From Mycoplasmatales bacterium (GTDB lineage: Bacteria > Bacillota_I > Bacilli_A > Mycoplasmatales > JABABV01), in NCBI GenBank assembly GCA_014238055.1, contig JABABV010000001.1, forward strand, positions 248,938 through 286,406: DNA of 37,469 nucleotides. Reading direction: 5' to 3'. Numbering within the stretch: the first letter of the stretch is position 1; each line of letters begins with the position of its first letter. Shown here piece after piece: positions 29,002-33,316 of this stretch. Under the pieces are notes generated by a model that saw nothing but the letters and a program-made list of their open reading frames with translations, had not been told where the DNA came from and searched no databases. The position numbers were made by a program, and so were the translations under genes.

Positions 29002-29409
29002 GGGGATGTACTGGATTCGACATGGCCTAACATTAATATTTTATGCAGTGGTTTCGCAAACCTAAATGCTCGAGGTTCATTTTAAATGGAAACTCTAAAA
29101 AAGAAACCGTTCCTACATATATGCTAAATAACGCGTCATCTTCAATGATGATGTCTGCAATGGCGTAATTGGTCTTTAACTAAAGATCGGAACCGTTAAG
29201 TTAAATTTGTCCTAGGTTTTTCTTAATGTTTTAATAGGACTCGTAGTATATTTTTCTCAAAATATATTATTAAATTTTAGAGATAGCTATTTTTAAGTTT
29301 GATTATTTTTCTTAAAAATTAAGCGAACCTTTCAAATAATAATCTAAACTGTAGATGTAATTTATTAAGTAAGTCGTGGACCCGGGTTCAATTCCCGGCA
29401 TCTCCACCA
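29002..29409 (+). ncRNA. ssrA: Transfer-messenger RNA (tmRNA)
   Basis: This 408-nt tmRNA gene rescues stalled ribosomes by trans-translation. The 5' end GGGGATG pairs with CATCTCC before the encoded A-CCA end (one G-U pair). The T-arm GGACCCGGGTTCAATTCCCGG is clear, and the 5' block GGGGATGTACTGGATTCGAC is the conserved tmRNA opening. The tag reading frame most likely starts at the resume codon GGA (29088) and runs 26 codons to TAA (29166-29168). It begins GNSKKETVPT and ends SSSMMMSAMA; a Gly resume codon is also found in B. subtilis. The two other frames close early or lack a hydrophobic end. Long tags are known in mycoplasmas. The tail -MSAMA would have to be recognised by the organism's own proteases; FtsH is encoded in this window. 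Resume codon choice is inference. Confidence 0.95.
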
Positions 29410-29426: not shown

Positions 29427-29458
29427 CTATTATAATTATATTAATAGGGGGGTGATGA
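29427..29458 (+). promoter_or_regulatory. Putative -10 box, small hairpin and very strong Shine-Dalgarno ahead of the GGDEF/EAL-like gene
   Basis: TATAAT is at 29431-29436, only 22 nt after the tmRNA 3' end. CTATTA (29427-29432) and TAATAG (29442-29447) form a small inverted repeat around it. Then AGGGGGGTGATG (29446-29457) closely resembles the anti-SD complement AGGAGGTGAT. No -35 is clear, so read-through from the tmRNA gene is an alternative source of transcripts. Confidence 0.4.
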
Positions 29459-31234
29459 ATTATAGATTTAAAAATATTTAGTAGTTTTATAATTAATTTT
29501 TATTTCGTTATTTTTTGAATTATTTTTTATTTTATTGTTAAAGTTGCTAAAAACAAAACTATCAATAGTAAAATAAAAAATAATATCTTTAATGTTTTCA
29601 TCAGTTTATTAGTAAGTTTATTTTTAATTTTAATGATTAAACTATCAACTCACACTTATAATAATATAAGAATAAATAGTTTAGTAATCAATATTATTTT
29701 AATTTATTTAACTAGTTCTATTACTGCTTATTTCATTAATTGGAAAAACGCTATCATCGTTTTATTTTCGAGTGTAATGTTTGAATTATTAAGCCGTAAT
29801 GAATTTAGTAAATTAATTATCATACCTGTAATCGCAACATTAATTTTTATAATTTTAATTATGCAAAATTTAAAAAGACAATTTTTATTCGTAACTATTA
29901 CAATTAGTTATTTATTAATTATCTTTATATTCTGAGAAGTTTATATTCTTTATTATCACGGTTATTACAATAAAAAAGTTATAACAGAAATAATTGTTGA
30001 AAGTTCCTTTTATTTAACTTTCATTATTATTTGAGCTTCATTAGTAATTATCGATAAAGTTTTCTTAAACTTAGAAGAAATATATGAAAATTCTTTTTAT
30101 ACTCCAGAAGGTTTTTTTCGACCAGCATTAGTAAATGAAGTAATTCATCGATTCATTAATGAAAACCATATTAGATTCGCTTATTTAATCGTTATTAACA
30201 AAGTAAATAAATCTAATATTCATTTACAATATAATATTTCTAAAGATGAACACGAAGATATAAACCATGAATTATCTAAATATATAAGTAATTTATTTAA
30301 AAAAAAGCAACTTATTAAATTTAAAATTGATCAAGATAATTATGGCTTATTTTTTAATATTGATAATTTAGATGATTGAAGAAATAATTTAAATAATAAT
30401 TTTTTATCAACTAATAAAACCCAAAATCCATTAACTATTTTAGATCGTAATTTGAAAAAATTTGCAAAATCAATTCCCGATATTAATTTAAAAATCGGTG
30501 CTTCAATTTATGGACTTAACAGTTATAGTGTCGAAGAATTAATTAGTTATTCTAAGTTTGCTATTTATTGAGGTCAAAATAATAATTTTAATGATCATTT
30601 ACAATTATTTAATCGTAAATATTTTGATATTTGACATCAAGAAAAATCAAAAATAAAGAATATAAAAACAATTATTAATTTAGATATGTCAAATTCAACA
30701 ATTAATGAAGTTATCGTTGGTAAAGAAGTTTTAGGAATTGCTAAATACGAAATTTTTTATAACCACTTATTTAGAAAAAACTATCACAAAAAAAGTCTTG
30801 ACCTAGAAATGACTATAAAAATTAATCGTTATTTTAGTTTTAAAACGTTAAAAAAAATTGCAGATTGAAAAACAACTAAAATTAATCGTATATTATTGCC
30901 TTATAATGCTGAACGTTTTTATGAAAAAGATTTTAATTTAATTATTCTAATTAATAATTTATTAAAAATTTGTCCTCATATAAATAAAGGTTTAATTTTT
31001 AATATCGACGATAGCTTTAATCGTAAAAATGAAAAATTAAACAAGATCTTCCAATATTTTCAAGCAAAAAATATCGCAATAATATTTAAATTAAAAACTA
31101 AGGTTCAAATAAGTAATCTATTAAATTTTTACAACCCTAATTTTTTAATTATAGAAGATAAACAATTTTTAAAAATTAAAAAAATTATTGCTCGAAAGCA
31201 AAATAAACCAAAACTAATATTGTTAAATAAATAA
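29459..31234 (+). CDS. Polytopic membrane protein with degenerate GGDEF-like and EAL-like domains
   Basis: This is a 591-residue protein if it starts at ATT 29459, 6-7 nt after AGGGGGGTGATG; the first in-frame ATG is at 29633, inside the second helix. Residues 1-205 hold about six to seven hydrophobic helices. Residues about 214-375 look like a GGDEF domain: FYTPEGFFRPALVNEV matches the TGL-NR start, FKIDQDNYGLFF sits where GGDEF should be (QDNYG, catalytic residues lost), and KIGASIYGLNSYSVEELISYSKFAIYWGQ-like text matches the SIG...eeLl..Ad.AlY end. Residues about 395-585 resemble an EAL domain in length and pattern but lack the E-A-L and DDFG metal residues. So catalysis is unlikely and sensing or scaffolding more likely. 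It is followed 24 nt later by the c-di-AMP synthase. Domain calls are by eye and need a profile search. Confidence 0.7.
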
Positions 31235-31258
31235 AAATTAAAAAGGATGTGCTAATTT

Positions 31259-31849
31259 ATGGGACAAATATATTTAAACTCTGATTTAACTAATAAAGAT
31301 CTATTATTAATTTTGATTATTTCATTTTTAGCAATTGGTTCACTACCTTATATTGGAAAATATATCACTTGAATATTAAGTACTAATAAATTTAAAAAAA
31401 ATAAAACCGAAATTAAAAAAACTATTTTAAGAAATATTTGCACTGTTTCTGAATCATTAGCTAAATCTAAAACAGGAGCAATAATTACTATTGAAAGAAA
31501 AATTCCTGTCAAAAACTTCGTTAATGCTGGTGAAGAAATTAATGCTGATGTTAGTCCTGCTTTAATCGAATCAATTTTCCAAATTAAATCACCTCTTCAT
31601 GATGGGGCGATTGTAATTTCTGGAAATCGTATTACATTAGCAGGAACTTATTATCGTGTTAGCACTAAAAAAATTGCTAGTTATTACGGGACTAGACATC
31701 GTGCTAGTTTAGGAATTAGTGAAGATACTGATGCTATTACGATCGTAATTTCTGAAGAGCGTGGGAAAATCAGTATTGCTAGAAATAATAATATTAAACC
31801 AATTAATAGAACTGATTTATATGCTTATTTAGAATATATATTCATTTAG
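31259..31849 (+). CDS. cdaA: Diadenylate cyclase (c-di-AMP synthase), CdaA/CdaM type
   Basis: The enzyme condenses two ATP into cyclic di-AMP, which controls potassium and osmolyte balance in Firmicutes and mollicutes. The 196-residue protein has one clear transmembrane helix (about 14-42, LLLILIISFLAIGSLPYIG) and a DAC domain with LHDGAIVI (the DGA motif) and GTRHRASLGIS (the RHR motif). Bacillus CdaA has three helices and about 270 residues; the one-helix form resembles CdaM of M. pneumoniae. TGA in YITWIL encodes Trp. ATG at 31259 follows AAAAAGGATGTG. Upstream is the degenerate GGDEF/EAL-like protein and 18 nt downstream mgtE. The usual partners cdaR and glmM are not adjacent. Confidence 0.93.
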
Positions 31850-31867
31850 AAAGTAGGTTATTCTATT

Positions 31868-33316
31868 ATGCATCAAAAAAATAATCCGAAACATAAAGTA
31901 GATATTGCAAAATTAAAACAAGCTGTTTCTTTACTTGATTTTAATTTCATTAGACAATATTTCCACAATCATAATGTTGTTGATATTGCTCAAGATGTTA
32001 TTGAATGAGAAGAGATTGATGTAGCTACTTTATTTCGTTTATTATCTACTAAAAAATCTGCTGATTTATTTACGCATTTACCACCAATTTATCAAAAAAA
32101 GTTAGTTCATATTTTTACAAGTAAAGATATTGAAAAACTTTTAGGTGATATTTATAGTGATGATATCGTTGATATTTTAGAAGATTTACCTGCTAATTTA
32201 ACGAAAAAAATCTTAACTTTAACAAAAAAAGATGATCGCGAAATTATTAATAAGCTTTTAAATTACAGTGAAGATTCAACTGGTTCAATTATGTCAGTTG
32301 ATATGATTCAATTAAAGAAAACTGATACTGTTTCTAAAGCAGTTAAAAAAATAAAGAATGCTGCTAACGATATTGAAATTACTCATTATTTTTATGTTGT
32401 TGATAAAAAACATCGTTTAATTGGTTATATTAAATCGGAAGATTTAATTATTGCTAAAAACGATACTGTCATATCAAAGATTATGCGTAGAGATATTATT
32501 TCAGTAAATTCTTATGACGATAAAGAAGTTGCGGCTAATGCTTTTAAAGCATATGATGTTTCAGTAATGCCCGTTATCAATCGTGAAAAATGTCTAATTG
32601 GGATGATCACTTCAGATGATATTATTGATGTTCTTGAAGAAGAAGCAACTGAAGATATCCATAAAATGGCCGGAATTAATCCGATCGATAAAACATATAC
32701 TCAGATGACAACTTTAGATATTTTTAAATCAAGATTTTTTTGATTATTATTTTTAATGCTTTCAGCTACTTTATCGCAAGCTACTCTAGACTTTTTCCAA
32801 GGGTGAACTAATCATCTAACTCATGTTGCCGCCACTGGAGCAATCGTTTCAACAGGAATAACTGCTACTTTAGTAGCTATCGTTCCTGATTTAAGTGGTG
32901 CTAGTGGTAACGCCGGCTCTCAATCATCGACGATGGTTATTCGAGCTTTAGCTACTCACGATGTTGTTAAAAAAGATTATCGTAAAGTTTTCTTGAAAGA
33001 ATTAAAAGCTGGATTTTTTATCGGAATGGCTTTGTTCGTTGCTAATTTTGTAAGATTAGTAATTTATTATACTGTCCGTAATAATGGTCTTTCAGACTTA
33101 GATGTTTGAATTTCTTTGTCAGGTTCAATCGCTCTATGATTAGTGATCCTTTTAGCTAAATTAGTTGGGGGAATGTTGCCGTTATTAGCAACAGCAGTTA
33201 ATTTAGATCCTGCTGTAATGGCAGCGCCATTACTAACAACTTTAGTAGATGCCCTGTCAATACTAATGTTTTTCTTAATTACGATCGGGATATTAATGGC
33301 CGCTGGTCAAATATAA
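31868..33316 (+). CDS. mgtE: Magnesium transporter MgtE
   Basis: MgtE is a gated Mg2+ channel/transporter. It has 482 residues. The N-terminal helical domain (about 1-135) is followed by a CBS pair (about 135-260, with YFYVVDKKHRLIGYI and SVMPVINREKCLIGMIT) that senses Mg2+, a connecting helix and five membrane helices. The pore region carries PDLSGASGNAGSQSSTMVIR, the family signature. Several TGA codons encode Trp in the membrane part. ATG at 31868 follows AAAGTAGG with only 18 nt to cdaA, leaving no room for an M-box riboswitch. It is the last gene of the presumed GGDEF/EAL-cdaA-mgtE operon, since deoD has its own promoter. Confidence 0.95.

Follow-up and report, generated by a model that had tools for sequence, protein, structure and literature searches.

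Why a mollicute that was not expected to make c-di-GMP should keep a large membrane protein of c-di-GMP-type architecture next to its diadenylate cyclase gene is the question raised by this locus. The window, the whole stretch of 37,469 nucleotides that was analyzed, belongs to an 845-kb mollicute assembly (Mycoplasmatales, GCA_014238055.1), the sole representative of its family among the genomes compared. The gene in question (29459..31234, plus strand) is an open frame encoding 591 aa under translation table 4, with seven TGA codons read as Trp. Its first in-frame ATG lies 58 codons in, with none earlier than 29633, and translation probably begins at an ATT at 29459 (or an ATA) behind GGGGGGTGATGA, a strong ribosome-binding-type stretch; an out-of-frame ATG at 29455, near this start, runs for a few codons only. 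Hydropathy analysis revealed an N-terminal membrane domain (residues 1-206; 29459..30076, plus strand) with about six to seven hydrophobic segments within residues 4-206 and none in the soluble remainder, in agreement with the six to seven helices that an earlier note on this DNA had read from the sequence.

The tmRNA gene (ssrA; 29002..29409, plus strand, ARAGORN), absent from the earlier note, lies directly upstream; it holds the same position in the loci of the family-rank groups f6, f8, f9, and f11 and is conserved in most of the order. Its tag, GNSKKETVPTYMLNNASSSMMMSAMA, is long and Met/Ser-rich, with the C-terminal end SAMA as against the common ALAA. Downstream lie a cdaA/cdaM-type diadenylate cyclase gene (31259..31849, plus strand), whose product has one membrane helix and a DAC domain (PF02457, E=1.5e-37; TIGR00159, 4e-45, under its cut-off), and mgtE (31868..33316, plus strand), encoding a magnesium transporter with an N domain, a CBS pair, and a membrane domain (PF03448, PF00571, and PF01769, E=7e-29; TIGR00400, 6e-102, above its cut-off). 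The genes are tightly spaced, with 50 bp between the tmRNA gene and the GGDEF-EAL gene, 25 bp between the latter and cdaA, and 18 bp between cdaA and mgtE.

As a single sequence, the window protein matched no family in Pfam and NCBIfam scans, and a BLAST-type search with it among 148 relatives returned a self-match only. Relatives were gathered by synteny through the gene upstream of cdaA: in 13 genomes, an open frame of 517-647 aa with 5-7 hydrophobic segments lies directly before cdaA. The synteny-based profile detected the family, whose proteins are about 510-690 aa long, in about 90 of 320 Mycoplasmatales genomes, and the window protein matched the family profile at 2.5e-81. Independently, a genome search with Pfam EAL recovered these genes from Spiroplasma-like genomes and from others, with E values down to 1e-23. 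Among the 70 aligned family members, 27 matched Pfam EAL (E<0.1; best 1e-22), with no comparable other family common to them, and none matched Pfam GGDEF. In hhalign, the soluble part of the 70-row alignment was co-linear with five E. coli GGDEF-EAL tandems over 352 columns (Prob 96.7, E=4.4e-10), the EAL part scoring Prob 94.4 (E=9.2e-8) and the GGDEF part, against E. coli GGDEF domains, Prob 85.7 (E=5.5e-6) within the soluble region and 58.9 when cut out alone; 20 unrelated E. coli decoys stayed at Prob <=0.5 with the 70-row profile, and at <=0.7 when both profiles used are counted. This signal emerged only with all 70 rows: the first 14 rows gave Prob <=7%, and a PDB-sequence profile search with those rows yielded chance matches only. 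The 70-row profile also retrieved co-linear GGDEF-EAL proteins from other Bacilli (best E=2e-26), most of them with DDFG and other catalytic motifs intact and none found adjoining ssrA or cdaA.

Structure models were built from two-row alignments (the window protein and Spiroplasma poulsonii L234), with pLDDT values of 43 and 32. All 12 PDB matches of the window soluble-part model (pLDDT 43) at E<=0.001 in Foldseek were GGDEF-EAL structures (DosP, LapD, PA0575, and PA0861), a result that counts as support rather than proof given its low TM-scores (~0.2). The profile, Pfam, and Foldseek evidence combined indicates that the family fold is almost certainly that of a tandem GGDEF-EAL protein, and EAL homology of the window protein itself is seen by way of the family profile and Foldseek only. 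Of the searches proposed in the earlier note to bring out a GGDEF-EAL fold, the profile search was fruitless with the single sequence and succeeded with the 70-member profile, and the structure search lent support through Foldseek of a low-confidence model.

The predicted GGDEF-like domain covers residues ~222-372 (30122..30574, plus strand; from the family's hhalign comparison with E. coli GGDEF domains and from Foldseek of the window model), and the predicted EAL-like domain covers residues ~380-570 (30596..31168, plus strand; hhalign and the Pfam EAL matches of relatives) and lacks catalytic residues. The active sites are as degenerate as had been claimed from the letters. In alignments with PdeR, PdeK, and PdeF of E. 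coli, QDNYG (residues 292-296; 30332..30346, plus strand) replaces the GGDEF active-site hairpin (GDEFLV in PdeR, GYDFAV in PdeK), and LGIAKYEIF and IFKLKT stand at the EAL and DDFG positions. Among relatives, the hairpin is mostly xx(Y/F)G, and in the merged alignment the EAL motif, the DDFG aspartates, and the EGVE glutamate are absent in 70 of 70 members; the VNLS asparagine remains in some, mainly Spiroplasma and Hepatoplasma types. The most conserved motif of the family is SIYG (30503..30514, plus strand; Y in 68 and G in 69 of 70 members), usually with xHSN next, and a family-specific inserted motif, N....R...D.L, is also conserved, being partly lost in the window protein. Judged by these residues, the family is catalytically dead, without those required to make or break c-di-GMP. 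In the f5 genomes and G178, a second, different degenerate EAL-type protein of 530-625 aa with about one membrane helix is encoded away from cdaA (L189:4771-6645, L190:4822-6636, and L191:5923-7509; Pfam EAL, E=3e-9 and 4e-5).

No real GGDEF diguanylate cyclase was detected in the 146 nearest genomes, consistent with the initial expectation that c-di-GMP is not synthesized. Pfam GGDEF gave four weak matches in these genomes, of which three were inspected and proved to be GdpP-type DHH proteins (L230, L231, and the window genome's L232), an identity confirmed by Pfam for L232. This GdpP (652 aa; L232:1054-3012, contig C109) comprises a PAS domain, a dead GGDEF domain (PF24898, E=8.8e-27), DHH, and DHHA1; the window protein carries no DHH and was rightly held to be distinct from GdpP. 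The window genome encodes both c-di-AMP synthase and hydrolase, and GdpP-type genes were also found in G138 and G003. The description of CdaA as the only visible cyclic dinucleotide enzyme accordingly applies to the window and not to the genome.

The old gene order, as read from the loci, runs rnr, a gene of ~150 aa, ssrA, the GGDEF-EAL gene, cdaA, mgtE, (deoD), and tRNA-Ser; the ~150-aa gene between rnr and ssrA is presumably smpB, by size and place rather than by profile. Synteny of the GGDEF-EAL gene spans f1, f3, f6, f8, f9, and f11. All or almost all of this order is found in f11 (G010 and its relatives), in genus-groups g38, g41, and g42 of f8, and in f9 (one inserted gene); the window has part of it, rnr not adjoining the other genes. 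In the f9 loci L052 and L161, an unknown frame of 860-879 aa lies between the GGDEF-EAL gene and cdaA. In five family-rank groups, the GGDEF-EAL gene stands directly before cdaA or one gene away from it wherever the locus is intact. Elsewhere the locus has been pared down: Spiroplasma (f6) retains ssrA, the GGDEF-EAL gene, and mgtE, with cdaA lost; Spiroplasma genus-group g25 has neither cdaA nor mgtE, the GGDEF-EAL gene lying between ssrA and a gene that reads as trmB-like; and within f3, g26 has the GGDEF-EAL gene followed by mgtE, with cdaA lost, and g29 has it followed by cdaA, without mgtE. The adjacency of cdaA and mgtE (31259-33316 in the window) recurs in many genomes of Mycoplasmatales, whether or not they carry the GGDEF-EAL gene, and this synteny hints at MgtE as a target of c-di-AMP in mollicutes.

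Other genes can occupy the place before cdaA. In Ureaplasma-like genomes, the upstream neighbor looks like pgsA, and in two g29-group genomes without the GGDEF-EAL gene (L080, L089), the frame preceding cdaA reads, by its residues, as DHH-type phosphoesterase-like, possibly a c-di-AMP or nanoRNA hydrolase. Where the GGDEF-EAL gene is missing, the short proteins encoded before cdaA were examined as possible remnants of it, an idea that was rejected; the only true truncated copy is that of G122 (L064:6555-7535), a family member without membrane helices that overlaps the start of cdaA.

The best explanation of these data, to which we give about an even chance of being right, is that the GGDEF-EAL protein serves as a membrane regulator without enzymatic activity and belongs to an ion-homeostasis locus, acting, in general terms, on the MgtE/CdaA module. 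We infer that the protein would act by conformation and protein contact and not by catalysis: its 6-7-helix domain may detect the state of the membrane or ionic or osmotic conditions, which the dead GGDEF-EAL module may relay to a membrane partner, the likeliest being its ion-homeostasis neighbors, MgtE and, where present, CdaA. This reading follows from the neighbors cdaA and mgtE and from published ties among MgtE, c-di-AMP, and Mg2+: MgtE of B. subtilis binds c-di-AMP, and Mg2+ and c-di-AMP shift together in osmotic stress/shock (PMC8844918), while a cdaA mutant of B. turicatae carried an mgtE mutation (PMC8316131). In E. coli, degenerate GGDEF domains do engage other proteins through specific contacts (PMC5635695). 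Several groups have kept the gene after losing cdaA, so its function would not depend on CdaA alone, and a direct role with CdaA only is less likely. The same explanation, with its even balance of confidence applying to the whole, places the gene already in the ancestor of much of Mycoplasmatales, within an rnr-smpB-ssrA-X-cdaA-mgtE locus (X, the GGDEF-EAL gene), with descent from active GGDEF-EAL proteins of other Bacilli. A fuller history is rather doubtful: an ancient c-di-GMP effector would have lost its activity and been rewired, without c-di-GMP, into a membrane regulator of CdaA-MgtE (c-di-AMP/Mg2+), which Spiroplasma would have kept for magnesium uptake after the loss of c-di-AMP synthesis.

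The earlier note had proposed a membrane regulator or receptor for c-di-AMP, or a partner controlling CdaA. A membrane regulator is probable; that the protein is a dedicated CdaA partner, taking over from CdaR the membrane control of the cyclase, or a reader of c-di-AMP, we consider unlikely. Such a role would suit the position of the gene, which in about 30 genomes immediately precedes cdaA at a short distance, the helix-less copy of G122 that still overlaps cdaA, and the absence of CdaR (YbbR, PF07949) from all 146 genomes, which extends the earlier observation that CdaR is not adjacent here. However, among these 146 genomes, 24 have both the GGDEF-EAL gene and a DAC domain, 71 have DAC only, 27 have the GGDEF-EAL gene only, and 24 have neither, a count that is no statistical test since the genomes are related; the 27 genomes without DAC and the 71 with DAC alone exclude an obligatory pair. 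The expectation that homologues always sit beside cdaA thus held wherever the locus is intact and broke down in Spiroplasma, g25, and g26, which lack cdaA, and in g12 of f3, G059, and G110, where both genes are present yet apart.

Selection also speaks against a dedicated CdaA partner. Of all copies, those of Spiroplasma that exist without cdaA have departed least from canonical EAL, and they are under purifying selection. In gene pairs compared under code 4 with our own Nei-Gojobori script, dN/dS of the GGDEF-EAL gene was 0.05-0.14 in g25, where cdaA and mgtE are missing, 0.06 in f9, 0.06-0.16 in f3, 0.18 in f8, and 0.35 in f11. The gene is therefore under purifying selection, constrained and not decaying; in the pairs compared, its protein diverged faster than CdaA, MgtE, and RNase R.

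We hold it equally improbable that the gene order was simply inherited from an old locus and that the protein serves some unrelated membrane process. Since cdaA and mgtE also adjoin where the gene is absent, its co-location may be inherited order: the block rnr-smpB-ssrA-(X)-cdaA-mgtE-deoD/tRNA-Ser is conserved even without X (G003, L035), and in f4 (G003) and f7, whose loci lack the GGDEF-EAL gene, cdaA directly follows the tmRNA gene. The true partner may likewise be elsewhere, because g25 retains the gene without cdaA or mgtE. Against this, the gene stays by the surviving cdaA or mgtE in several separate lineages despite rearrangement of the remainder of the locus.

The most often kept neighbor of the GGDEF-EAL gene is ssrA, not cdaA, which raises a CsrD-like role, in which a dead membrane GGDEF-EAL protein would aid RNA turnover, here that of tmRNA, with RNase R/SmpB. 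CsrD, itself a degenerate GGDEF-EAL protein, regulates the decay of CsrB/CsrC (PMC5635695); ssrA is the most constant neighbor in f1, f6, f8, f9, and f11, often together with smpB and rnr, and in f3, G059, G110, and G139 the GGDEF-EAL gene directly follows rnr. The link is one of adjacency, with smpB assigned by size and place, and ssrA does not adjoin the gene in f3, nor was any RNA-binding feature found; a CsrD-like role is accordingly very unlikely. An active c-di-GMP phosphodiesterase or c-di-GMP receptor, with Mycoplasmatales still using c-di-GMP, as suggested by EAL homology and by a coral-mollicute EAL domain taken as a sign of such use (PMC11535214), is almost certainly excluded by the catalytic residues missing in every aligned member and by the lack of a real cyclase in the 146 genomes.

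A regulator in an ion-homeostasis locus thus remains our preferred reading. Although mollicutes have some of the smallest genomes known, this large c-di-GMP-type membrane protein persists in about 90 of the 320 Mycoplasmatales species sampled, including species predicted to make neither c-di-GMP nor c-di-AMP, and so offers a clear example from nature of GGDEF-EAL domains maintained for a non-enzymatic role. The family also points to a partner, so far unreported, in the locus of tmRNA, cdaA, and mgtE. A full-text search of open-licence papers found no published description of the family.

Among known systems, the tandem GGDEF-EAL proteins (E. coli PdeK, DosP, and PdeR, and the intact relatives in Bacilli) share the domain order and fold of the family, whereas the family has lost both active sites, carries a 6-7-helix N-terminal domain, and occupies a fixed ssrA-cdaA-mgtE place in an order without detected c-di-GMP synthesis. 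CsrD and LapD are likewise membrane-bound, non-catalytic tandems serving as regulator or receptor, a likeness of architecture and way of working rather than of membership; by PDB titles, LapD is a binder of c-di-GMP, whose synthase was not detected here, and CsrD acts on Csr RNA decay. GdpP, too, combines membrane anchoring with a dead GGDEF domain in an organism that has c-di-AMP, but differs in its PAS domain and DHH/DHHA1 end, and a true GdpP is encoded separately in the window genome. CdaR is similarly a membrane-anchored neighbor of cdaA, but differs in fold, YbbR repeats having no Pfam match in the window protein. The U1 gene of Ca. Oceanoplasma callogorgiae, likened by description only, encodes a protein, also from a mollicute, in which an EAL-like region accompanies a membrane segment; the gene is highly transcribed, and its authors suggested retained c-di-GMP use (PMC11535214), whereas the present data argue for a different reading of such mollicute EAL genes.
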